A DNA stretch of 35,121 nucleotides. Source: a virus. Both the position numbers and the translations under genes were made by a program. Where the stretch lies: positions 1-35,121 of the IMG/VR virus record IMGVR_UViG_3300047462_000032; one strand, written 5' to 3'. A model generated the notes under the pieces. It was given only the letters and a program-made list of their open reading frames with translations. It was not told where the DNA came from and ran no database searches. Below, in pieces: positions 5,209 through 35,121 of the stretch (the first letter of the stretch is position 1; each line of letters begins with the position of its first letter).

Positions 5209-6498
5209 ATGGCTGGAACTACAGTAGCATCTCTAAATGGTGTTTTTAAGCAGGCATATGCTGAAGGTATTGAGGATCTAATCCCAAAGTCTAGCATTCT
5301 TCAGAAGGAAATTGATTTTAAACTAGGAACTGAAAAGTTGGGTGATAAGTTCAACCAACCAGTTGTAGTTGCAAATGAACTTGGTATCACATTTGGTGGT
5401 TCAGCAGGTTCAGCATTCAATCTAAACAACCCAATCTCAGTATCAACTCAAAACGCATTGGTCCCAGGCGTCAGCATGGTCCTACGTTCAAGTCTTAGCT
5501 ATGATGCTGCAGCAAAGGCATCTTCAAATGTTAACGCATTTGTGGACTCAACTAGTTTCCAAATGGAAAACATGGTTGAATCTATGTCAAAGTTTGTTGA
5601 AATTGAATTGATCTATGGATCAAGTGTGTTTGGTCTTGGTACATTGGCATCTGTAACATATGCAGGTTCACCAGCTACCACAGCAACACTAACATTCAAC
5701 GCACAGCAATGGGCAGCAGGTATCTGGTCAGGTTTTGAAAATGGCTTGGTTGATATTTTTGCAGGTAGCTCTTCTGGTGTAACTGGTTCATCTCCACTTA
5801 ACAGTGTAGGTCCAATCACAGTAACAGCAGTAAGTGTTGCTTCAAAGACATTGACAGTTTCAGGTGCAGCAGCAGACTTGGTTGCAATTGCAGCTTCTGC
5901 AACAAATGCAGTAGTTTATTTCTACGGTGCATTTGGTAATGAAATTCAAGGACTTGATTACTTGATCTCAACTGTTGGTACTGTAAACAACATCAACAAC
6001 GTAACTTGGAACTTGTGGCAGGGTAATGTCTACAACGTAGGCAACGTAGGACTAACAACCGCATTGGTTGGTTCTGGTCTTGCATTGGCACAGGCACGTG
6101 GTTTGATGGAAGATACAATGCAGATCATCAGCCCAGCTTCATGGGTTAACTTGAACACAAGCTTGGTTACAAATAACCGTAAGTTTGACTACAAGTACAG
6201 CACAGCAAAGGCAGAGGACGGTTCAGAAGTAATTCAGTACTACACTCAGTCTGGTGTTGTTGATATTCACAGCCACATCTATGTCAAGGAAGGTGAAAGC
6301 TACAATCTTCCAACCAAGCGTGCAAAGCGTATTGGTGCACAAGACATTTCATTCCAGATTCCTGGAAGTACAGAAGGTGAAATCTTCTTGCAGCTCCCAA
6401 ATGCTGCAGGCTTCGAGTACCGTTTGTATACTAATCAAGGCATGCTATTGACCAAGCCTGCCGCATGTACTAAGTTCTATAACATTGCAGCTGTATAA
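5209..6498 (+). CDS. Major capsid protein
   Basis: A 429-aa protein following the scaffold, with a strong Shine-Dalgarno (TAGGAG) and a dedicated terminator just downstream, as expected for the most abundant virion protein. The N-terminal 130 residues and C-terminal 150 residues look like the conserved coat fold. The middle (about residues 145-255) is an Ala/Gly/Ser/Thr/Val-rich beta segment (with PITVTAVSVASKTLTVSG), which may be an inserted surface domain. Assignment is by position, length and composition; there is no catalytic motif to check. Confidence 0.85.
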   Translation: MAGTTVASLNGVFKQAYAEGIEDLIPKSSILQKEIDFKLGTEKLGDKFNQPVVVANELGITFGGSAGSAFNLNNPISVSTQNALVPGVSMVLRSSLSYDAAAKASSNVNAFVDSTSFQMENMVESMSKFVEIELIYGSSVFGLGTLASVTYAGSPATTATLTFNAQQWAAGIWSGFENGLVDIFAGSSSGVTGSSPLNSVGPITVTAVSVASKTLTVSGAAADLVAIAASATNAVVYFYGAFGNEIQGLDYLISTVGTVNNINNVTWNLWQGNVYNVGNVGLTTALVGSGLALAQARGLMEDTMQIISPASWVNLNTSLVTNNRKFDYKYSTAKAEDGSEVIQYYTQSGVVDIHSHIYVKEGESYNLPTKRAKRIGAQDISFQIPGSTEGEIFLQLPNAAGFEYRLYTNQGMLLTKPAACTKFYNIAAV

Positions 6499-7253: not shown

Positions 7254-10200
7254 ATGCCAATTACAGTTCACGTCTCCGGATCTCCTTACTACATTGCTGA
7301 ACCTGGAGAATACGGATGGGGTCAAAATATGACCAATTGGGCTGTTGCTGTTAGCAATAGTCTAGTCTTCCCTAAAGGTGGTGGTCAATATACGTTAACT
7401 GGTGATGTTGATTTTGGTCCTTATGCAGGACTAATTGTAAATTACATTAAATCTGAAACTGGTACCACATATCCCACAACTAAACCTGTAGCCTCCCAAG
7501 GTGTACTGCGTCTATCTGATACGGATGTTATTGCTTGGAGAAATTATGCTAATACAGGTGATAATGTTCTAGGTGTTAATTCAAGCAATCAACTTACATT
7601 TAATGGAACAACTTTAGGATCAGGTTCTGTTTCTTCTGTTGGATTATCCACACCAGGTGTTATCTTTTCTGTATCTGGTTCTCCAGTTACTACTTCTGGT
7701 ACACTTGCATTAAATCTCTTAACGCAAACTGCACACACAGTTCTTGCTGGTCCTACTTCTGGTAGTGCTGCAACACCTACATTCCGTGCATTAGTTGCTG
7801 CTGACTTGCCATCAGGAACTGGCACTGTAACCTCTGTTGGTATTACAACCACATCTTCAAGATTAACTGTATCTGGTTCTCCTGTAACAACGTCAGGAAA
7901 TATTGCACTTGATTTAGCTACAACTGCTGTGACAGCTGGTTCATATACAGCAACCAATTTAACAGTTGATGCATATGGTAGAATCACGGCGGCAAGTAAT
8001 GGAACTCCAGGTGGTGTTACTTCTTTTAATACAAGGACAGGTGCAATAACACTTAACCAAACAGATGTTGATTTAGCATTTGGTTCCTTAACAGCTAATA
8101 ACATTTATGCAACACCAAATGGATCTGCAGGCATTCCTGGTTTCCGTCCATTGGTGGCAAATGATATTCCAAGTCTAAATTATGTTACATCTGTTTCTGG
8201 AACAAGTGGACAAATTACGTCCACAGGTGGATTAACGCCAACGCTTGGACTTGCTACAACTGGTGTAGTTGTTAACACATATTTAAATGCCAATATTGCA
8301 GTAGATCAATATGGACGTATTACAGCAGCAACAAATGGATCTTCTGGTACTGGCACTGTAACTTCTGTTGGATTAACTTCAACAAATTTAACAGTTACTG
8401 GTTCACCTATAACAACAAGCGGAACTTTAACCGTAGCCTTGCCAACTACTGCTGTCACAGCTGGTTCATATACAAATGGAAATTTCACTGTTGATGCTTA
8501 TGGAAGATTAACTGCAGCATCAAATGGATCTGCTGGTGGTGTCACAAGTTTTAATACAAGAACTGGTGCCGTTACTTTAACCTCAGGTGATGTAACAACT
8601 GCACTTGGTTTCACTCCAATTTCTGGCAACCAAACAATTACACTTTCTGGTGATATAACTGGATCTGGTGCAACTGCAATTTCAACTACATTGGCTACTG
8701 TTAACTCTAACGTTGGTTCATTTACAAATGCTAACATTACTGTAAATGCAAAGGGATTGATAACTGCTGCATCAAATGGAGGTGCAAGTGGTGTTAGTTC
8801 TTTTAATACAAGAACAGGAGTTGTAACGCTAACAAGTTCAGATGTAACAACTGCACTTGGGTTTACTCCAGGAACTGGCACCGTCACATCCGTTGGTTTA
8901 TCACTACCAGCCATTTTTACAGGTAGTGGTGCTCCAATTACTACAAGTGGAACTTTGGGAATTACTCTCAATAGCCAAAATGCAAATTTGGTTTTTGCTG
9001 GACCAACTACAGGTGCGGCAGCAACTCCAACATTCCGTGCATTGGTAGCAGGAGACATCCCATCACTTTCATATGTTACATCCGTTGGTTTAACAAGTAC
9101 AGATTTCACGGTTAGTGGTTCACCAATCACTTCATCTGGTTCTATTACAGCTAATCTAAACACACAAGGTGGGTTGACATCTGGTTCTTACACCAACACA
9201 AACATTACTGTAAACAGCAAGGGTATCATTACTGCTATCAGTAATGGAACTTCTGGATCTCCATCACTAACTGCAACTTATGTTGGTTATGGAAGTGGAA
9301 GCAACCTATTAACTGGCACAAGTGATTTTACCTATACATCAAATACCTTAAGTATTGGTACCGCAGGTGCTACATTTAATTTGGGTGTTATTGGTACCGT
9401 AGGTGCTACTATCAACGCTGGACCTACTGCAATAGCTGGAACAAGTATTACCAATGCAGGACCATTAACTCTTAATGGAATTAGTAGTTCATCCACTGCA
9501 ACAAGTGCAAGAGCTGGTTTTGTCATTGTAAATTCAGGTAGCTATACAGGAACAGGTTCTACTAAACATGATGCTGGAAAATTACAACTCTTTGCTGGAA
9601 ATACAGCTTCAACAAGTACGTTATCAAATGGTGGTAGTGTAGAACTTTATGGCGGAAGTTCTGTAAATGGACCTGGTGGAAATGTAGCCCTAACCAGCGG
9701 AAGTAATGGAACTTATGGTGGTTGCACTTTAATTCTTGGTGGAGCTGGTACCACTTATAATGGAAGCGTAGACATAAGTGCTCCAGGAACTGGAGCTTCC
9801 ATTTTTATGACAGCAAACGGAACTTCTGGTTCCATTCAATTACAAACTTTAAGTTCATCAGGTCAAATTGCATTTTACACTGGAGCTTCAAACCAATTTT
9901 TTATCTTGGGTACTGGTGATTTTAACTTTAGTGGAAACTCTGGTAATTCAGGAGACGTATTAACTTCACAAGGTTCTGGTGCACAGCCCACTTGGACAAC
10001 TCTTTCTTATGGGACCGTCACATCTGTTGGGTTATCCAGCACAGACTTTACTGTTAGTGGTTCACCAATCACTTCATCTGGTTCTATTACAGCTAACTTA
10101 AACACACAAAGTGGATTGACAGCTGGTTCTTACACTAACACAAATATCACTGTAAACAGCAAGGGTATTATTACAGCCATTGCAAATGGATCTGCTGGTG

Positions 10201-12266
10201 GTGTTACTTCTTTTAATACAAGAACAGGGGCAGTAACGCTAACAAGTTCAGATGTAACCACAGCACTTGGATTTACACCAGGGACGGGGACCGTCACATC
10301 CGCATCTGTTGTTTCTGCTAATGGTTTTGCTGGTTCTGTTGCAACCGCAACCACAACACCTGCAATAACAATCAGTACATCTATTACTGGATTGATAAAA
10401 GGAAATGGTACTGCAATTAGTGCAGCTACAAGCGGAACAGATTACTCTGCCGGAACGTCTGCCTTAGGAACAGGTATTTTGAAGTCAACAACTTCAACTG
10501 GTGCATTAACTATTGCTGTTGCAGCTGACTTCCCAACACTAAATCAAAACACAACTGGTAATGCAGCAACCGCAACCAATGTAGCCGGTGGTGCGTCAGG
10601 TAGCATTCCATATCAAACAGGAGCAGCAACAACTTCAATGCTTTCTGTTGGACCTAATGGTGATGTTCTTACAGTAGTAGGTGGAATTCCAACATGGCAA
10701 ACTCCATCTGGTGCTGGACTTGGTTCTGTATCCAGCGTTGCAATGACAGTACCATCAAGAATGTCTGTAAGTGGTTCTCCAATTACCACAGTTGGAACCT
10801 TAGCATTAACTGATAATACACAAAATCCAAATCTAGTATTTGCTGGACCAAGTTCTGGCTCAACAGCAGCAACTCCAACATTCCGTGCATTAGTAGTTGC
10901 TGATCTACCAACAAGCATTCCAAATGCTAATTTGGCTAATAGTTCTCTTACAGTTGGTACAACAAGCATTTCTCTTGGTTCATCTGCAACTACAATTGCA
11001 GGTCTAACCTCTGTTTCATCAACTGGATTTACAGGCGCATTGACTGGAAATGCAAGTACTGCTACATCACTTGCTGGTGGAACTGCAAACTACATTCCTT
11101 ATCAATCAGCATCTGGAACAACTGGATTCATTTCACCATCAACAAGTGGATATGTCTTAACATCAAATGGAACAGGAAGTGCACCTACATTCCAAGCGGC
11201 AAGTGGTGGAGGTGTAAGTTGGGCAACATATACTGGAAGTAATTCAGCTCCAACTGTAACCGCATCCACAAATGTATTAGCATTAAACTTTGGTGCTGGT
11301 GCAAATTCTATTGCAGAAACTGGGACACCTTATGGTGCGTTGTATGCTGGTGCTTCTATTACAACTTCAGGTGCAACAGATAGAAACATTGTCTTTTGGG
11401 GTGGTGCAGATAGTGGCGGAACCTCTACTGCAAGAACATTAACTATGACTGCAAAAGACAGTGTTATCATTGTCCCAAGTGCATCATCATCAATGACTTT
11501 AGGCGCACCAACTGGTTTAAATGTTATCATTGGTGCAAAGGCTTATGTTGTAAGCAATGGAGATGGTGGTGAAAATACTGTTATTGGTGCCGGTGCTAAC
11601 TCTCAAAATACAAACGGACAAAGTACATCTGTAGGTTACAATGCTTCAACAAATGCTGACCAGGCAACTGCTATTGGAACTTTTTCATCTGCTACAGGTC
11701 AAAATAGTGTTGCACTTGGTGCAAGTGCAACTGCCAGTGCTAAACAATCTACTGCTATAAATGGAACTGCCTCAACTGTAAATTCAACCGCACTTGGTTA
11801 TAACTCTCAAACAGATTCTGTTGGTGAAGTTTCATTAAGTAGTGGATACCAATCTACTGCTGGTGATAGAGCAACTAAAATTATTACACTTTGGGGCAAC
11901 ACTACTAATGCCACACCACTTCAACTTGGAACAAATTCAACTGGTTCAGGAGCACCAAATTCATACATTACATCTGCAATTAACTCTGCTTACTACTATG
12001 ACATAACTGTTGTTGGAACTAATACTACAAGTGGTGGTAATGTATTTGGACAAAATTTCTGGTACATTGGATACATGGGAGCCACTGCATCAACATTCCA
12101 AATTAGCGGAAGCGCCATTGATAGTTGGGGTATTGGAACTACAACCGGTTGGTCTGTTGCTATTACGGCAGATACAACAAATGGTGGTCCAAAAGTGTCT
12201 GTAACAGGTGTTGCATCCACAAACATCCATTGGGCAGCAACAGTAAAAATAACAAAGGTAGCATAA
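7254..12266 (+). CDS. Giant repetitive tail fibre/adhesin with YadA-like head repeats
   Basis: A 1670-aa protein, largest in the genome, almost all Ser/Thr/Gly/Asn/Val with very few charged residues. The N-terminal ~120 residues (YYIAEPGEYGWGQNMTNWAVAV, then AWRNYANTGDNVLGVN) are shared with the next gene and probably form the virion anchor. The body contains many copies of phage-fibre modules such as GGVTSFNTRTGAVTLTSSDV, TALGFTPGTGTVTSVGL and NTNITVNSKGIITA. About residues 1440-1540 carry AIGxxSxATGxxSVALGxxA-type repeats like trimeric autotransporter (YadA/Hep_Hag) heads. The C-terminus is a non-repetitive, probably receptor-binding or chaperone-free domain. It is predicted to be a trimeric receptor-binding fibre. 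The DNA-level repeats make it prone to recombination and mis-assembly. Confidence 0.88.
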   Translation: MPITVHVSGSPYYIAEPGEYGWGQNMTNWAVAVSNSLVFPKGGGQYTLTGDVDFGPYAGLIVNYIKSETGTTYPTTKPVASQGVLRLSDTDVIAWRNYANTGDNVLGVNSSNQLTFNGTTLGSGSVSSVGLSTPGVIFSVSGSPVTTSGTLALNLLTQTAHTVLAGPTSGSAATPTFRALVAADLPSGTGTVTSVGITTTSSRLTVSGSPVTTSGNIALDLATTAVTAGSYTATNLTVDAYGRITAASNGTPGGVTSFNTRTGAITLNQTDVDLAFGSLTANNIYATPNGSAGIPGFRPLVANDIPSLNYVTSVSGTSGQITSTGGLTPTLGLATTGVVVNTYLNANIAVDQYGRITAATNGSSGTGTVTSVGLTSTNLTVTGSPITTSGTLTVALPTTAVTAGSYTNGNFTVDAYGRLTAASNGSAGGVTSFNTRTGAVTLTSGDVTTALGFTPISGNQTITLSGDITGSGATAISTTLATVNSNVGSFTNANITVNAKGLITAASNGGASGVSSFNTRTGVVTLTSSDVTTALGFTPGTGTVTSVGLSLPAIFTGSGAPITTSGTLGITLNSQNANLVFAGPTTGAAATPTFRALVAGDIPSLSYVTSVGLTSTDFTVSGSPITSSGSITANLNTQGGLTSGSYTNTNITVNSKGIITAISNGTSGSPSLTATYVGYGSGSNLLTGTSDFTYTSNTLSIGTAGATFNLGVIGTVGATINAGPTAIAGTSITNAGPLTLNGISSSSTATSARAGFVIVNSGSYTGTGSTKHDAGKLQLFAGNTASTSTLSNGGSVELYGGSSVNGPGGNVALTSGSNGTYGGCTLILGGAGTTYNGSVDISAPGTGASIFMTANGTSGSIQLQTLSSSGQIAFYTGASNQFFILGTGDFNFSGNSGNSGDVLTSQGSGAQPTWTTLSYGTVTSVGLSSTDFTVSGSPITSSGSITANLNTQSGLTAGSYTNTNITVNSKGIITAIANGSAGGVTSFNTRTGAVTLTSSDVTTALGFTPGTGTVTSASVVSANGFAGSVATATTTPAITISTSITGLIKGNGTAISAATSGTDYSAGTSALGTGILKSTTSTGALTIAVAADFPTLNQNTTGNAATATNVAGGASGSIPYQTGAATTSMLSVGPNGDVLTVVGGIPTWQTPSGAGLGSVSSVAMTVPSRMSVSGSPITTVGTLALTDNTQNPNLVFAGPSSGSTAATPTFRALVVADLPTSIPNANLANSSLTVGTTSISLGSSATTIAGLTSVSSTGFTGALTGNASTATSLAGGTANYIPYQSASGTTGFISPSTSGYVLTSNGTGSAPTFQAASGGGVSWATYTGSNSAPTVTASTNVLALNFGAGANSIAETGTPYGALYAGASITTSGATDRNIVFWGGADSGGTSTARTLTMTAKDSVIIVPSASSSMTLGAPTGLNVIIGAKAYVVSNGDGGENTVIGAGANSQNTNGQSTSVGYNASTNADQATAIGTFSSATGQNSVALGASATASAKQSTAINGTASTVNSTALGYNSQTDSVGEVSLSSGYQSTAGDRATKIITLWGNTTNATPLQLGTNSTGSGAPNSYITSAINSAYYYDITVVGTNTTSGGNVFGQNFWYIGYMGATASTFQISGSAIDSWGIGTTTGWSVAITADTTNGGPKVSVTGVASTNIHWAATVKITKVA

Positions 12267-12267
12267 A

Positions 12268-14130
12268 ATGTCAGTAGCATTAACAGTTAACGGAACAACA
12301 TTTAACTATCCAACAACCAATGATACAGCTTGGGGTTATGATGCCACTGGTTGGGCTGTTGCTATTACTGCTGGAACCTTACCAAAAGCAGGTGGTACGT
12401 TTACATTAACAGGTCCAGTTAATTTTGGTTCTATTGCAGGTTTACTTGCAAAAAGTTTTAGTTCAAATGCCACATCTGCTGTTGCAACTTCTGGTGTCCT
12501 TAACTTAGTTGATACAGATAGTATTGCTTGGAGAAATACAACCAACACTGGGGATAATTTGCTTGGTGTCAATGGAAGCAACCAAATTATATACAATGGA
12601 ATACCTATCAGTGGTAATCAATTAACAACAAAAGGTGATTTGCTTGGATATAGCACACAAGCTGTCCGTGTTCCTGTAGGATCAAACCAAACATTATTAA
12701 TGGCTGATAGCACACAGGCAGATGGATTAAGTTATTCTGCGCTTGTTGTTGGTGCAGGTATTTCTTTAAATTATGCATCAAATGTATTCACATTTGCAAA
12801 TACAGGTGTGTTGTCTATTACCACAAATACTGGTTTGAGCACAAACGTAAGTGCAACTGGCAATGTTACAATTACTAACACTGGTGTTTTAAGTATTACC
12901 ACAAATACTGGTTTGAGCACAAACGTAAGTGCAACTGGCAATGTTACAATTACTAACACTGGTGTTTTAAGTTATAGCTTAAATGATCAATCTACAACAC
13001 CAATTTACTTAACAGCACCAACTGGAGCATCTACAGGTAATATTGCTTCAACGCTAACGCTAATTGTTCAACAACCAAATTACGTCTTTGCTGGACCAGC
13101 AAGTGGTTCTTCAACTGCACAACCTAACTTTAGACATTTGGTTGCTGCTGATCTTGGTGGTACTGCACCTGGAAGTGCAACTGATATCATTTACAATGGA
13201 ACGGTTAATGGTATAGCAAATAGCTTTGCTGCAGATGGTGGGTTTACATATACCACTTCAACTGGAACTGTAACTCTTGGAACCACATCAAAAAACAGCA
13301 CCATTAACTTGTTAGGAACAACAAGTGGACAAAATTCCATTACAAGTACAGGTGGGTTTATTGATTTCTTCAATGGCTCACCAACTATTAGTTTAGAAAT
13401 TAACTCAACAAATTACATGGAACTTGTTGCAGGTGGTGAAATTTCCTTCTTTACAAATGCACCCGGAACTGTTGGTGTTCAAGCTGAACACTACAACATT
13501 TATGGTGCGTGGGCATTAGGTGGAAATCCATCTTCAAGTTCATCTTATGGAACATCCGGACAAGTATTAACATCAAGTGGTGCTACAGCACCTCCAATTT
13601 GGTCAAATGGAATTGTTACATATGTTGCTGCTGCAACCGCAGGTTCATACGCTGGAGCACTAACAATTACTGGTTCTCCAATTACTACATCCGGAACAAT
13701 TACTATTACACCAAATGAGTTTACAAGCACAACTCCTGGTGTTGTTCCTGCTTCTGGTGGTGGATCAACCAATTACTTAAATGCTAGTGGAACATGGACC
13801 TCTCCATCACCACCAACAGAATTTACAAAGGAATATGCAACCGCTGCAAATGGTGGTAGCCATACAATGGTTATTGGTGGTACGTACACGCAGTACTATA
13901 CATTAATGCTAAATGGAACAGGAACTGTTAGCAGTTATACAATTAATTTCCCTACTTCACCAAATGATGGAATGACGGTATGTGTTGCATTTAACTATGC
14001 AATTAGTGGGTTATCAATTGTAGGAAATAGCGGAAGTACTGTTTTTGGTGGACTAGGTTCTGCAGCTGCACAAAGTTTTGCAAAGTGGACTTATGATGCT
14101 ACAACAAAGAATTGGTTTAGAAGTGGATAA
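12268..14130 (+). CDS. Second tail fibre, N-terminal paralogue of the giant fibre
   Basis: A 620-aa, Ser/Thr/Gly/Asn-rich protein starting one base after the giant fibre stop. Its N-terminal ~115 residues align with those of the upstream fibre (AWGYDATGWAVAITAGTLPKAGG versus YGWGQNMTNWAVAVSNSLVFPKGGG; AWRNTTNTGDNLLGVNGSNQ versus AWRNYANTGDNVLGVNSSNQ), pointing to a common attachment domain and origin by duplication. The middle contains a perfect 78-bp tandem duplication. The C-terminal ~90 residues (KEYATAANGGSHTMVIGGTYTQYYTL and onward) look like a compact beta domain, probably the tip. It is likely a second receptor-binding or branched fibre. Confidence 0.85.
   Translation: MSVALTVNGTTFNYPTTNDTAWGYDATGWAVAITAGTLPKAGGTFTLTGPVNFGSIAGLLAKSFSSNATSAVATSGVLNLVDTDSIAWRNTTNTGDNLLGVNGSNQIIYNGIPISGNQLTTKGDLLGYSTQAVRVPVGSNQTLLMADSTQADGLSYSALVVGAGISLNYASNVFTFANTGVLSITTNTGLSTNVSATGNVTITNTGVLSITTNTGLSTNVSATGNVTITNTGVLSYSLNDQSTTPIYLTAPTGASTGNIASTLTLIVQQPNYVFAGPASGSSTAQPNFRHLVAADLGGTAPGSATDIIYNGTVNGIANSFAADGGFTYTTSTGTVTLGTTSKNSTINLLGTTSGQNSITSTGGFIDFFNGSPTISLEINSTNYMELVAGGEISFFTNAPGTVGVQAEHYNIYGAWALGGNPSSSSSYGTSGQVLTSSGATAPPIWSNGIVTYVAAATAGSYAGALTITGSPITTSGTITITPNEFTSTTPGVVPASGGGSTNYLNASGTWTSPSPPTEFTKEYATAANGGSHTMVIGGTYTQYYTLMLNGTGTVSSYTINFPTSPNDGMTVCVAFNYAISGLSIVGNSGSTVFGGLGSAAAQSFAKWTYDATTKNWFRSG
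12816..12971 (+). repeat. Perfect 78-bp tandem repeat inside fibre gene 2
   Basis: 12816-12893 and 12894-12971 are identical and in frame, giving two copies of a 26-residue unit containing ITTNTGLSTNVSATGNVTI. Perfect identity indicates a recent duplication or ongoing length variation. Confidence 0.9.
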
Positions 14131-29849: not shown

Positions 29850-30070
29850 ACTCCAGTGTAGCTCTGGACGGCGGGAACAGGAATAGATTGAGTAATTGAT
29901 CTATTGCATGCAAGACTAACATTGCATGGTTTACTGCTTGATACCAAGACAACGTGTCTGGGTCTGATGCCCGTACCAAGGTGGAATTCCAATTAGGGAT
30001 TCCACAGCATCACATAAGGGTTCAACTCCCTGGGTCTTCCTCCCACCCAAGTTTGAAGAACTTGGATCTT
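29850..30070 (+). ncRNA. Densely hairpinned presumptive structured RNA
   Basis: The 465-bp gap 29747-30211 has no convincing ORF but holds consecutive perfect or near-perfect hairpins: TCCAG/CTGGA (7-base loop, ~29851), AATAGAT/ATCTATT (29882-29905), CATGCAA/TTGCATG (29907-29928), AGACA/TGTCT (29947-29959), GGGT/GCCC (29960-29972), a 10-bp stem GTGGAATTCC/GGGATTCCAC (29981-30005), AGGG/CCCT with a TTCAACT loop like a tRNA T-arm (30017-30031), and CCAAGTT/AACTTGG (30047-30065), then a T-rich tract. That many adjacent stems in about 215 nt suggests a folded RNA. It does not fold into a normal tRNA and matches no RNA family I recognise. Strand is assumed + from the neighbours. Confidence 0.55.
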
Positions 30071-30109
30071 GCTTCTTCCTCCCTTTAATTTTTGTTGATT
30101 TAATTTTTG

Positions 30110-30137
30110 TTGACTTCCTTGTTTATTGGGTTATACT
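30110..30137 (+). promoter_or_regulatory. Strong sigma-70-type promoter for the AIPR/hemerythrin unit
   Basis: TTGACT (30110-30115), a 16-bp spacer and TATACT (30132-30137): the same hexamers and spacing as the 26018 promoter. CTTAAATA (30146-30153), a late-motif-like element, follows 8 bp later, again repeating the 26018 arrangement. Confidence 0.75.
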
Positions 30138-30145
30138 TCCCTTGT

Positions 30146-30153
30146 CTTAAATA
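30146..30153 (+). promoter_or_regulatory. Candidate gp55-type late promoter (CTTAAATA)
   Basis: It lies just downstream of the sigma-70-type -10 box and 58 bp before the AIPR ATG. The close pairing with the early-type promoter repeats what is seen at 26040-26056. Confidence 0.4.
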
Positions 30154-30211
30154 TTAATTGCTACCACATTAACTTAAATGACCAGTGGTAGGGTCCAATA
30201 AGGAGTTTGAT

Positions 30212-31438
30212 ATGAAGAAGCTTAGTCTTGAATTAACTCAACGCCCAAACCAGCAAGCTGATATCTCATTCAGCAAAAACACCAAGTGTGTTGTCTGGGA
30301 AGGAAGTATCCGTCTAATTGATTTGGTACCAGGAATTGGAAATGATCCAAACACAAGAGACCCAAACCTGAAGTCCAAAGTAGCCAAGGCTGTCCGCCAT
30401 ACTCTTAGATATGAACCACAGATGTTCTACCTAAAGAACCAAGGGATTGACATTACTTGTGATAACTTTTGGTTTGACAAACAAAATCAGAATAAGGTCC
30501 ATTTGGAATTACCTGAGTTATCTGACAACACAGACACGGTCCCAGGTGGAATAATCAATGGATTTACAACGTATAGTCTAATTCAAGAAGCACTGACAGA
30601 CTCAGATGTGTTTACACTGATTAAGAACTCAGGTGCTACTGTCAGAATCACATTCCTGGTCAACTGCCCAGTTTCTGAGTGGGAACAGATTGTTAAGGCA
30701 AGGAATGCAAGCAACCCACAGGAGCAATGGGGACTAGGTGCAATTGGTGGGCAATTTGATTCATTAATTAGTGAAATTGAAAAGTATCCAACCATTGCCA
30801 ATCAAGTTAATACCAAACCAGGTGGACCAAAACCTCATGACTTGGATGATCTTATCCGCTTAGTTTCATTGTTTAGGTTGGATTATAGCCTTGATCAGTG
30901 GATTGAACATGATAAACACCCAATCAGTAGCGCTACGTCCATTGGTTCAGTGGTTAATGGATACACATATGATGCATACAAGCCACTTCACAGACTAATT
31001 CCTGACTTTGTTCAATTGGATAACCTAATCAGAGAGGAATATCAACGCCAACTTCAAGATGGACGTATCAGGTCTCCTCATGGTGTTTCAAAAACACCTT
31101 ACATCTCCTTCAATGGTGAGAAGTTTGATTACACACTGAATGACCCACTTACCTTACCATTGATTAGTGCATTCCGTATCCTTTTAGTCAACGCAAACAA
31201 TAAACTTGCTTGGAAAGGCAATGTCAGCATTAAGGACGTTTGGGAAACTCACCAAGCATTCTTTAGGAAGTTAGTCTCTGACCATAGGAAGTTGGTGCAA
31301 GACATAGTTGAAGCACAGGACATCCCTTCAGGCAAACTTGTCCTAAAGAGGAACATAACCATGAATGGTGTTTCAAGGAGTTTTGTTCTCTGGGATTCAC
31401 CAGTTAAGAAGATTGCACGTGAATTCAAACTCAACTAG
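30212..31438 (+). CDS. AIPR (abortive infection phage resistance) family protein
   Basis: A 408-aa protein from the ATG at 30212 (AAGGAG 8 bp upstream); an in-frame GTG at 30185 has no ribosome site. Three signatures of the AIPR family appear in order: FYLKNQGIDI at residues 72-81 (family form: FxxxNNGI), GGIINGFTT at 112-120 (family form: INGxQT), and a strand plus VKARNASNPQ at 161-170 (family form: AxNxQ). Family members are known from abortive-infection and other phage-defence loci; their biochemistry is poorly defined. In a phage the likely role is exclusion of competing phages or manipulation of host defence. It is the first gene of a promoter-to-terminator unit with a tiny ORF and a hemerythrin gene. 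Confidence 0.82.
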   Translation: MKKLSLELTQRPNQQADISFSKNTKCVVWEGSIRLIDLVPGIGNDPNTRDPNLKSKVAKAVRHTLRYEPQMFYLKNQGIDITCDNFWFDKQNQNKVHLELPELSDNTDTVPGGIINGFTTYSLIQEALTDSDVFTLIKNSGATVRITFLVNCPVSEWEQIVKARNASNPQEQWGLGAIGGQFDSLISEIEKYPTIANQVNTKPGGPKPHDLDDLIRLVSLFRLDYSLDQWIEHDKHPISSATSIGSVVNGYTYDAYKPLHRLIPDFVQLDNLIREEYQRQLQDGRIRSPHGVSKTPYISFNGEKFDYTLNDPLTLPLISAFRILLVNANNKLAWKGNVSIKDVWETHQAFFRKLVSDHRKLVQDIVEAQDIPSGKLVLKRNITMNGVSRSFVLWDSPVKKIAREFKLN

Positions 31439-31565
31439 AGTTGTAGTCATCAATGCAAGATCCAGGGCAATTGCCCTGGAGTACCTTAAGTTGATTAAGC
31501 AATTCAATCCAAAGTACTTCAAGAGGAACATTCAAGGTAGGCAAATCAAGATAAATACCAAATGA
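31419..31565 (+). CDS. Tiny coupled ORF (48 aa)
   Basis: From the GTG at 31419, overlapping the AIPR stop by 20 bp, to a TGA that overlaps the hemerythrin start (ATGA). It encodes a basic peptide containing TRVVVINARSRAIALEYLKL. The tight overlaps at both ends argue for a real, translationally coupled gene, but there is no homology signal and the start is uncertain. Confidence 0.5.
   Translation: MNSNSTRVVVINARSRAIALEYLKLIKQFNPKYFKRNIQGRQIKINTK
31550..31557 (+). promoter_or_regulatory. Candidate gp55-type late promoter (GATAAATA)
   Basis: It lies inside the end of the tiny ORF, 4 bp before the hemerythrin ATG. Transcription from it would start inside the gene unless used for a shorter product, so it may be fortuitous. 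Confidence 0.2.
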
Positions 31566-31963
31566 GTTGGTATTCACAAATACAGAAGGATCATAAGGAA
31601 ATCAAAAGTGCATTTGAACATGCAATCCAAGACCCATCTGAACCTAATATAACCAAAGCAAGGGAATTGCTACTTGCCCACGCATATGCAGAAGAGAAAA
31701 GTATCTACCCCTCCTTAAAGAAACACCAAATAGGGGACTCAGACCTCCTAAGTGAACAACATCAAGCAGAAGAAGAGATTAAACATATCAATTCCAAGAC
31801 AAAAGATGTAAAGGAGAAGTTGTCCAAATTGCTACAAGCAGTACTAGAGCATGCCATTTCCCATGAAGAAAAGGACAAGTTCAAACAACTTAGGGAGAAG
31901 TTAGGGATCCAGCAGAATCTTGAACTTGGTTCTTTGTATAAGCAACACTACCACTTGAAATAA
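31562..31963 (+). CDS. Hemerythrin HHE domain protein
   Basis: A 133-aa four-helix protein with the hemerythrin HHE ligand pattern: His11 (DHKEIKSAF), His40 with Glu44 (HAYAEEKSIYPSL), His67 with Glu71 (EQHQAEEEIKH), and His97/His101 with Glu102 (LEHAISHEEKDKF). Spacing fits the two HHE repeats that bind a di-iron centre and sense O2, NO or oxidative species. The ATG overlaps the stop of the tiny ORF (ATGA). Hemerythrin-like genes are unusual in phages; here the gene is co-transcribed with an AIPR protein, so a redox- or gas-sensing partner is conceivable. A strong hairpin follows directly. Confidence 0.88.
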   Translation: MSWYSQIQKDHKEIKSAFEHAIQDPSEPNITKARELLLAHAYAEEKSIYPSLKKHQIGDSDLLSEQHQAEEEIKHINSKTKDVKEKLSKLLQAVLEHAISHEEKDKFKQLREKLGIQQNLELGSLYKQHYHLK

Positions 31964-31965
31964 CC

Positions 31966-31986
31966 AATTTGGTTCAAAACCAAATT
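31966..31986 (+). terminator. Hairpin after the hemerythrin gene
   Basis: AATTTGGTT and AACCAAATT pair perfectly over 9 bp around a 3-base loop, 2 bp after the hemerythrin stop. The following sequence is T-rich (ending GATTTT) but has no uninterrupted T-run right after the stem, so termination efficiency is uncertain. Confidence 0.55.
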
Positions 31987-32069
31987 TACCGGTTGATTTT
32001 CATGTTTGGCTTGACCCCACCCCTATTAAATCAAATGTTTTTATGGGTCTTAAATTCCTCCTAGCGTCA

Positions 32070-32106
32070 ACACTACGTGCGCATCTGAGCACTACGTGCC
32101 TGCACA
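32070..32106 (+). repeat. Iteron-like 37-bp repeat, copy 1
   Basis: Identical over 37 bp to 32537-32573. Each copy holds two CACTACGTGC elements 20 bp apart, with GCATCTGAG between them. Related elements: ACGTGCGCAC and ACTACGTGCA at 32223-32240, and inverted ATGCGCACGTA at 32749-32759 and 33425-33435. Confidence 0.85.
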
Positions 32107-32536: not shown

Positions 32537-32573
32537 ACACTACGTGCGCATCTGAGCACTACGTGCCTGCACA
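32537..32573 (+). repeat. Iteron-like 37-bp repeat, copy 2
   Basis: An exact copy of 32070-32106, 467 bp downstream, in the same orientation. Confidence 0.85.
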
Positions 32574-32651: not shown

Positions 32652-32731
32652 TTATTCCTGCAGAAAAATCCGTATCACTCCCCCCGTAAACGGCAAATGA
32701 GACGTTGACCTATTAGGGTAATAGGGTGATA
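32652..32731 (+). repeat. 80-bp duplicated promoter element, copy A
   Basis: 78 of 80 bases match 32984-33063. It includes TTGACC (32705-32710), a 17-bp spacer holding two TAGGGT motifs, and GATAGT (32728-32733). It lies upstream of the 59-aa gene at 32785. The repeated TAGGGT in the spacer may be an operator. A short basic ORF (32634-32708) also runs through the copy. Confidence 0.85.
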
Positions 32732-32983: not shown

Positions 32984-33063
32984 TTATTCCTGCAGAATAA
33001 TCCGTATCACTCCCCCCGTAAACGGCAAATGAGACGTTGACCTAATAGGGTAATAGGGTGATA
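32984..33063 (+). repeat. 80-bp duplicated promoter element, copy B
   Basis: The second copy of 32652-32731, with TTGACC (33037-33042), a 17-bp spacer and GATAAT (33060-33065), the better -10 of the two. It precedes the 82-aa gene at 33096. Confidence 0.85.
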
Positions 33064-33435: not shown

Positions 33436-33517
33436 GGGTGCAGTCCCAGTTATTTGGTTTGACCCAAACGCTCCCCTGCCACATATATTTTCTCCATTTT
33501 TAAAGCACCGGGGTCAA

Positions 33518-33787
33518 CCAGTGATCCCATTTGGCTAACCAGCCATCTGATTTGGCTAATTGCAGCCATCCCATTTGGCTAACCAGTGATCCCATTTGGC
33601 TAACCAGTGATCCCATTTGGCTAATTGCAGCCATCCCATTTGGCTAACCAGTGATCCCATTTGGCTAACCAGTGATCCCATTTGGCTAACCAGTGATCCC
33701 ATTTGGCTAACCAGCCATCTGATTTGGCTAATTGCAGCCATCTGATTTGGCTAGCACGGGGGTCAACCAGCCATCTGATTTGGCTAA
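33518..33787 (+). repeat. 12-unit minisatellite upstream of terS (candidate pac/terminase site)
   Basis: Twelve units of 21 or 23 bp share the core ATTTGGCTA. The main forms are CCAGTGATCCC or CCAGCCATCTG (21 bp) and a 23-bp form starting TTGCAGCC. A 21-bp period equals two helical turns, so the same face of DNA repeats. The array is bracketed by GGTCAACCAG blocks and lies 145 bp before the probable small terminase gene, as packaging-recognition (pac) repeats do in some phages. It could also be an origin or partition-like site. The 587-bp gap 33345-33931 otherwise holds a hairpin, a 19-bp repeat and the terS leader. Confidence 0.8.
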
Positions 33788-33915
33788 TTGGTCAAATCCC
33801 CCAGTTTGTAAAATTTTTTGGTTCTATTTTAAGCACAAGGGGAACCACTCCTTGTCTGACCAGTAGATTTGGAACCAGATGCCTTAATCTTACTTGGTGC
33901 TTATCCTTACTTATC

Positions 33916-33923
33916 TCTAAATA
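33916..33923 (+). promoter_or_regulatory. Candidate gp55-type late promoter / terS leader (TCTAAATA)
   Basis: The TAAATA overlaps the AGGGG ribosome-site region of terS and lies 8 bp before its ATG, too close for a normal leader unless the mRNA is nearly leaderless. It is included because it repeats the TCTAAATA form seen at 19223 and 29255. Confidence 0.25.
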
Positions 33924-33931
33924 GGGGTACT

Positions 33932-34540
33932 ATGGATGACCAATTAAAACCAACTGAAGCAGAACCCAAGAAACATTACCGGACCATTACTGAACGCGTG
34001 GCTGAACGCAAGGAGGAACGGACACGTATTAAGCGGGGACGTAAACCTAAGTGTGTTGAAGGCAAACGCCTTTATAAGCGTATTGAGGACATTGTTATGA
34101 AGGGGGTAACTTACCAACGTAATGTTGCTGCTGCATTGGGGTTAACTTATGTTGCTTGGCAACGTATGTGTGAAAAGCCTGGATCCAAATTACGTGAAGT
34201 CTATGCTGAATCTGTTGCTAAAAGGGATGCACTAGTTCAAAGGGCATATTATGACATTATGGCTGATGAGAACATCAACATGCGGATTAAGGCTGATTTT
34301 GTCAAAACTGAGAAGTTACTAATTGATAAGCGTGCAATGGATGAGGAGCAACCACGTGGGTTTGGTATTGCAAACCCAGGTCTTTACTTAACCAATGATG
34401 AATTGATGGCTGCATTGATGAGACCTCAGTTGCAGATGACATTTACCAGCAGTCAGCCAGAAATAGTTAGTGAGATACAAGAAGCAGAAATTATAGGAGA
34501 AGTAGATGAACATAAGGAACGTAGAGAAGAAAACAACTGA
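33932..34540 (+). CDS. terS: Probable terminase small subunit
   Basis: A 202-aa protein from the ATG at 33932 (AGGGG 6 bp upstream); an earlier in-frame ATG at 33869 lacks a site. A basic N-terminus (TERVAERKEERTRIKRGRKP) precedes a helix-turn-helix-like segment (IEDIVMKGVTYQRNVAAALGLTYVAWQRMCEKP, residues ~53-85), then a helical oligomerisation-type region (EVYAESVAKRDALVQRAYYDIMADENINMR) and an acidic tail. This is the general plan of phage TerS, which binds the packaging site and hands DNA to TerL. It lies just after the minisatellite and four small genes before TerL. Function inferred from layout and position. Confidence 0.7.
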   Translation: MDDQLKPTEAEPKKHYRTITERVAERKEERTRIKRGRKPKCVEGKRLYKRIEDIVMKGVTYQRNVAAALGLTYVAWQRMCEKPGSKLREVYAESVAKRDALVQRAYYDIMADENINMRIKADFVKTEKLLIDKRAMDEEQPRGFGIANPGLYLTNDELMAALMRPQLQMTFTSSQPEIVSEIQEAEIIGEVDEHKERREENN

Positions 34541-34936: not shown

Positions 34937-35121
34937 AGTCTCATTGGTGTTACTTGGTGGGCTGGTTGTATTTGCAATTTGGGCGTATGTTGAGTTTACA
35001 AGGCATAAGGTTATTGTCAGTGCACATGAGGAACTAATTGCACATCTTGATAGTGAATATGAAGGAATTAAACTAGTTGAACTTACATTAAGTAGTAAAT
35101 TAAAGGAATTGGAAGACCGGG
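34929..35121 (+). CDS. Small membrane protein with coiled-coil tail, 5' part (continues at position 1)
   Basis: The ATG follows AAGGAG and overlaps the zinc-ribbon stop. It encodes MVEVSLVLLGGLVVFAIWAY, a transmembrane segment, then a charged tail. The frame runs to the end of the window and continues at base 128 of the left end, giving 84 aa in total on the circle. Confidence 0.8.
   Translation, partial: MVEVSLVLLGGLVVFAIWAYVEFTRHKVIVSAHEELIAHLDSEYEGIKLVELTLSSKLKELEDR
34995..35121. repeat. Terminal direct repeat, right copy
   Basis: Identical to 1-127; see the left copy. It marks the join of the circular map. Confidence 0.95.

Follow-up and report, generated by a model that had tools for sequence, protein, structure and literature searches.

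The window analysed here is the virus record in its full length of 35,121 bases. An identical 127-nt repeat is present at both ends (1-127 and 34995-35121), so the genome appears complete, at about 34,994 bp, in a circular or circularly permuted assembly. The record contains terminase, portal and major head genes together with further structural genes, and its right arm is made up of small genes, among which lies an operon on the plus strand encoding an AIPR-family protein (30212-31438), a tiny ORF (31365-31565) and a hemerythrin-like HHE protein of 133 aa (31562-31963). The earlier note, made from the letters of the sequence, had described these as three overlapping genes. The overlaps are those of the tiny ORF, which overlaps the AIPR gene and whose stop codon overlaps the start of HHE as ATGA, whereas the AIPR and HHE genes themselves have 123 nt between them. 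Translated from ATG 31365, the tiny ORF would encode 66 aa, and from GTG 31419 it would encode 48 aa; it has no homologue or database match, and its codon usage does not discriminate between coding and noncoding. It is plausible as a putative gene linking AIPR and HHE.

Analysis of the noncoding elements around the operon (all on the plus strand) yielded a mixed picture of the features previously proposed to delimit it. The "strong promoter" corresponds to a promoter-like sigma-70-type site, TTGACT-16-TATACT (30110-30137, 10/12 matches), which has the joint best score within 8 kb, but such sites are rarer in the region than in shuffles (16 vs 22.9), i.e. there is no enrichment. Upstream of the operon lies a structured noncoding stretch with several hairpins (29868-30065). 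As regards folding, the proposed "structured RNA" holds up, with sequences more stable than shuffles (z about -3.3; -3.26 for 29850-30085 and -3.55 for 29868-29960), but it matches no Rfam family or tRNA. The stretch has strong hairpins and includes GGGTTCAACTCCC, which resembles a T-arm; neither ARAGORN nor Rfam supported reading the stretch as a tRNA or tmRNA, and both assignments were dropped. The "terminator-like hairpin" did not survive scrutiny: the A+T-rich hairpin 3' of HHE (31961-31995) is no more stable than shuffles (z -0.97), lacks a T-run and is absent from the terminator scan, and we dropped this role.

The AIPR ORF, as listed, spans 30185-31438. The likely start is ATG 30212, with a Shine-Dalgarno-like AAGGAG just upstream (30200-30205, plus strand), which gives a protein of 408 aa; GTG 30185 would give 417 aa. 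Its assignment in the earlier note is confirmed: the ORF scores 69.1 bits against the Pfam AIPR profile (PF10592; gathering cut-off 25) and matches many annotated AIPR proteins in tblastn (E 1e-13), and we regard the family membership of the predicted protein as secure. Published work ties AIPRs to abortive infection as well as to restriction loci (PMC3506569, PMC2292703, PMC9523054); the protein is commonly called an abortive-infection protein, and a HEPN RNase is sometimes ascribed to it (PMC3506569). PADLOC defence models matched neither the operon proteins nor the pair (best score MzaE, 10.8 bits, and weak Csn2-like), and direct 8-mer searches of IMG/VR gave no relative for the window AIPR, for HHE or for terminase. 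In length and domain the window AIPR is like the "short-form" AIPRs of about 400 aa from plasmids and cyanobacteria, at about 20-25% identity, and it retains their N-x-R and N-x-G motifs as well as the conserved Arg and Trp of the C-terminal half. A divergent HTH gene flanks the five Firmicutes plasmid AIPR copies that we examined, whereas the window AIPR has none. AIPRs are encoded in other phage genomes too (e.g. Podoviridae sp. ct8nN1 in BFVD, and IMG/VR loci L012-L018). Unlike the window copy, those of L013, L014, L017 and L018 reside in a replication module, with no HHE nearby; for example, an intact-motif AIPR in L013 (5782-6942; also in L014, L017 and L018) lies between the genes for DNA polymerase A and RecA. 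Loci of this type suggest a place in DNA metabolism for some of the AIPRs that phages encode.

The AlphaFold2 model of the window AIPR is confident (pLDDT 87.9, from a 66-sequence alignment). Its top Foldseek match is a phage AIPR protein (E 3.5e-8), followed by GmrSD N-terminal, DNA-sulfur-modification-associated (DndB-like) and ParB-like proteins; a fold search of the PDB with the same model gave nothing significant, the best match being BrxU, a GmrSD-family enzyme (E 0.42). In profile comparisons with hhalign, the AIPR segment containing GGHT aligns with the DndB segment containing DGQHR (P 9e-4, probability 22%); DndB versus GmrS scores 96%, AIPR versus GmrS directly 0.2%, and the unrelated HHE control 0.1%. 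GmrS has a ParB/Srx fold, and its DGQQR motif, which resembles DGQHR, has been proposed to bind NTP (PMC4619093), and a DndB-like protein binds ATP/GTP (PMC12704722). On the strength of the fold matches and the profile alignment with DndB, the AIPR family is probably ParB/Srx-like; we hold this model-based assignment to the DndB and GmrS (DUF262) relatives with moderate confidence. The window AIPR differs from these systems in that the glutamine/histidine and arginine of DGQHR are missing, and no phosphorothioation or restriction partner was recognised in the window genome. The ParB/Srx-like placement, toward which the model and the profile comparison lead in place of the HEPN RNase label, gives AIPRs a testable biochemistry, namely NTP and DNA binding.

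The window AIPR is unusual in that very segment. Where it reads NGFTT (codons 30557-30571, plus strand), the motif is (D/N)GGHT in short relatives and mostly NGGQT in long AIPRs. GGHT occupies the motif position in 86/86 short-form relatives, a unanimity that may partly reflect selection, because these sequences were collected in part with a motif-region pattern that permitted either G or F, and either H or T. The 30 long-form AIPRs, gathered with the Pfam profile alone, all have a Gln variant, nearly always NGGQT. The (D/N)GG(H/Q)T motif is conserved as observed in this analysis and is not a Pfam rule. Judged by the aligned sequences, the window AIPR has lost the conserved Gly-His/Gln (GGH) of the family motif; further near-invariant residues are also changed. 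This loss argues against standard AIPR activity, although it may alter nucleotide binding rather than abolish it. When further AIPRs of the GFTT type were sought with a degenerate search, the three matches returned were all due to chance.

In the tree, the tip branch of the window AIPR is long (1.9 vs a median of 0.28), and the protein groups with AIPRs of cyanobacteria (support 0.75, and 0.95 for the grouping with Nostoc plasmid copies). Two of the nearest cyanobacterial AIPRs (L022, 5926-8395, and L028, 5902-9422) adjoin defence-type genes. One member of this nearest branch adjoins a DndA/SspA-like cysteine desulfurase, and the other an AriA/PtuA-like ATPase followed by an AriAB-like protein, i.e. 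a PARIS-like arrangement; a different short AIPR adjoins MzaC. AIPR may thus be a DndB-like partner of DndA/SspA-like or PARIS-like systems, but the DndA/SspA-like match may equally be an ordinary housekeeping cysteine desulfurase.

The hemerythrin assignment of the downstream protein holds as well. It scores below the cut-off of the Pfam Hemerythrin profile (PF01814; 18.5 bits vs 25.3, E 0.0029), but it shares 31% identity over 96% with an annotated hemerythrin-domain protein (tblastn E 2e-6; phmmer 1.6e-12, in a small database), and the core ligand residues are in place: H11, H40, E44, H97 and E102 occupy conserved ligand columns of the alignment. H67 is three residues off the consensus helix-3 His, and a one-residue insertion precedes E102; the histidines at 67 and 101 are additional. 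The single-sequence model is helical, with a pLDDT of only 55, too low for the fold to be used. The predicted protein resembles the bacterial HHE hemerythrin-like proteins in its length, in being predicted helical and at most ligand positions, and departs from them in its sub-cut-off score, the insertion before the last ligand and the shifted helix-3 histidine. The family call is weaker than that for AIPR but sound. Sensing of redox state, O2 or NO, as the earlier note suggested, would have its basis in the family name and the conserved ligand residues.

To place the operon among related phages, we used a hand-made portal motif, which retrieved 80 stretches, at least 79 of them from relatives, and in nearly all of these the portal identity was 30-51%; a scan with a portal alignment had found no relatives. 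The window phage is thus, by portal sequence, a member of a large clade; its structural genes are of a clade resembling Silvanigrella phage. Neither an AIPR nor a credible HHE was found in any of 50 long related phage records, some of them fragments. The lone HHE-like match among the related phages (G452, 14.5 bits) lies below the cut-off and was not counted. Seven relatives compared with the window phage have the structural block in common but not the right arm, and since relatives are without the operon, it appears to be accessory in the window phage. A homologue of the T4 gp55-type late sigma factor is encoded in this short phage (28832-29242, PHROG E 2e-27), and none was found in the seven relatives; T4-type late promoters (TATAAATA) show no enrichment.

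The pairing itself was sought with an HHE profile in about 125 other AIPR loci in all, scanning as far as 6 kb to either side of AIPR or, in a second set of 30 loci, about 1.5 kb to either side. No HHE was found beside AIPR in the approximately 125 loci, with the limit that a divergent HHE might escape detection because few sequences went into the profile; a two-sequence HHE alignment used as query likewise found no relative in IMG/VR. The earlier note had treated the adjacency as a self-contained unit, and had named confinement to this genome, with no conservation, as what would refute its reading. Within the sample examined (these AIPR loci and the 50 related phages), the pairing indeed appears private to one genome. 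AIPR genes in phages have been annotated before, and they occur in other viral contigs here; what is new is an AIPR form lacking the motif, and its pairing with HHE, both in one genome. Until the pair turns up elsewhere, the hemerythrin partner appears incidental.

In order to reconcile these observations, we tentatively favor a moron-like accessory cargo operon encoding two separately acting proteins, with no conserved AIPR-hemerythrin system; an accessory, moron-like operon is also the likeliest setting for the two genes. The starting points are the observed homologies, the motif loss and the absence of the pair from relatives. A single promoter would probably drive co-transcription of AIPR, the tiny linking ORF and HHE, with translation of HHE probably coupled to that of the tiny ORF. 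The AIPR gene was probably acquired from the AIPR branch of defence-linked cyanobacterial proteins. Having apparently lost the GGH/GGQ motif, its product most likely does not hydrolyse a nucleotide but works by binding, either to DNA or to a protein partner, and it might act as a regulator, or as a decoy against host defences of the AIPR/DndB type. HHE, as a small di-iron protein, would probably work alone and buffer the infected cell against O2, NO or peroxide, and the two proteins would be mutually independent, although the operon layout could still reflect their cooperation. A naturally occurring phage AIPR without the motif lends itself to comparisons that ask if "dead" AIPRs serve phages as decoys or regulators.

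The earlier note had proposed a joint anti-competitor function, for which the tests that we ran gave no support; the operon might still serve superinfection exclusion as such. As a two-protein superinfection-exclusion or abortive-infection module, with an AIPR effector gated by an HHE sensor of redox state, O2 or NO, the operon would fit what is known of AIPRs in abortive infection and at restriction loci (PMC3506569, PMC2292703, PMC9523054), the defence genes adjoining the nearest AIPR relatives, and the carriage of anti-phage cassettes by phages and satellites (PMC9122126); its own promoter-like site and the ATGA overlap with HHE point the same way. Against this stand the missing adjacency in the AIPR loci and related phages, the lost AIPR motif and the failure of the pair to match any PADLOC model, and we consider such a module unlikely. 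The most specific version, in which a dead-motif phage AIPR coupled to a di-iron hemerythrin forms an oxygen/NO-gated decoy or exclusion module, and hence a new two-component anti-competitor or anti-defence system, seems to us highly improbable.

The AIPR might instead serve the phage's own replication, partition or copy control, acting like ParB or Rep on the adjoining repeat-rich DNA, with HHE incidental. This would accord with the replication module of the other phage group, where AIPR accompanies DnaB helicase, primase, DNA polymerase A and RecA, with the ParB-like fold matches, with a 21-nt tandem array 1.5 kb downstream, and with the apparently complete 35-kb window genome, in which PHROGs and Pfam searches recognised no DNA polymerase, primase or helicase anywhere. 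However, the 50 related phages without AIPR must replicate too, and the GC-skew has no clear switch at the repeats (33516-33753), which leaves this role rather unlikely. Finally, the unit could be a decayed or recently acquired passenger, its AIPR degenerate and neither gene of importance to the phage. The long AIPR branch, the loss of near-invariant residues and the lack of conservation of the AIPR-HHE unit agree with decay, but neither reading frame is disrupted, AIPR gives a confident model and HHE retains its main ligand residues; we regard this as unlikely too. Weighing these alternatives, we retain the cargo operon of two independent proteins as our provisional interpretation.

Several other features of the genome were observed in passing. 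The tandem array at 33516-33753 comprises about 10 iteron-like 21-nt units (AACCAGTGATCCCATTTGGCT) and is flanked by a small gene and by an ORF (33869-34540) that may be small-terminase-like. Closer to the operon, a single, mostly noncoding stretch of 1.1 kb contains two sets of duplicated blocks, one of 80 nt (32652-32731 and 32984-33063, 98% identical) and one of 37 nt (32070-32106 and 32537-32573, 100% identical); both 80-nt copies have a promoter-like TTGACC-17-GATA(A/G)T ahead of a short ORF. Elsewhere in the record, two large neighbouring proteins (7254-12266 and 12268-14130) each match one and the same N-terminal segment, about 117 aa long, of related phages (e.g. G428, 6099-6422), and are probably encoded by paired tail-fibre-type genes with a common attachment domain.
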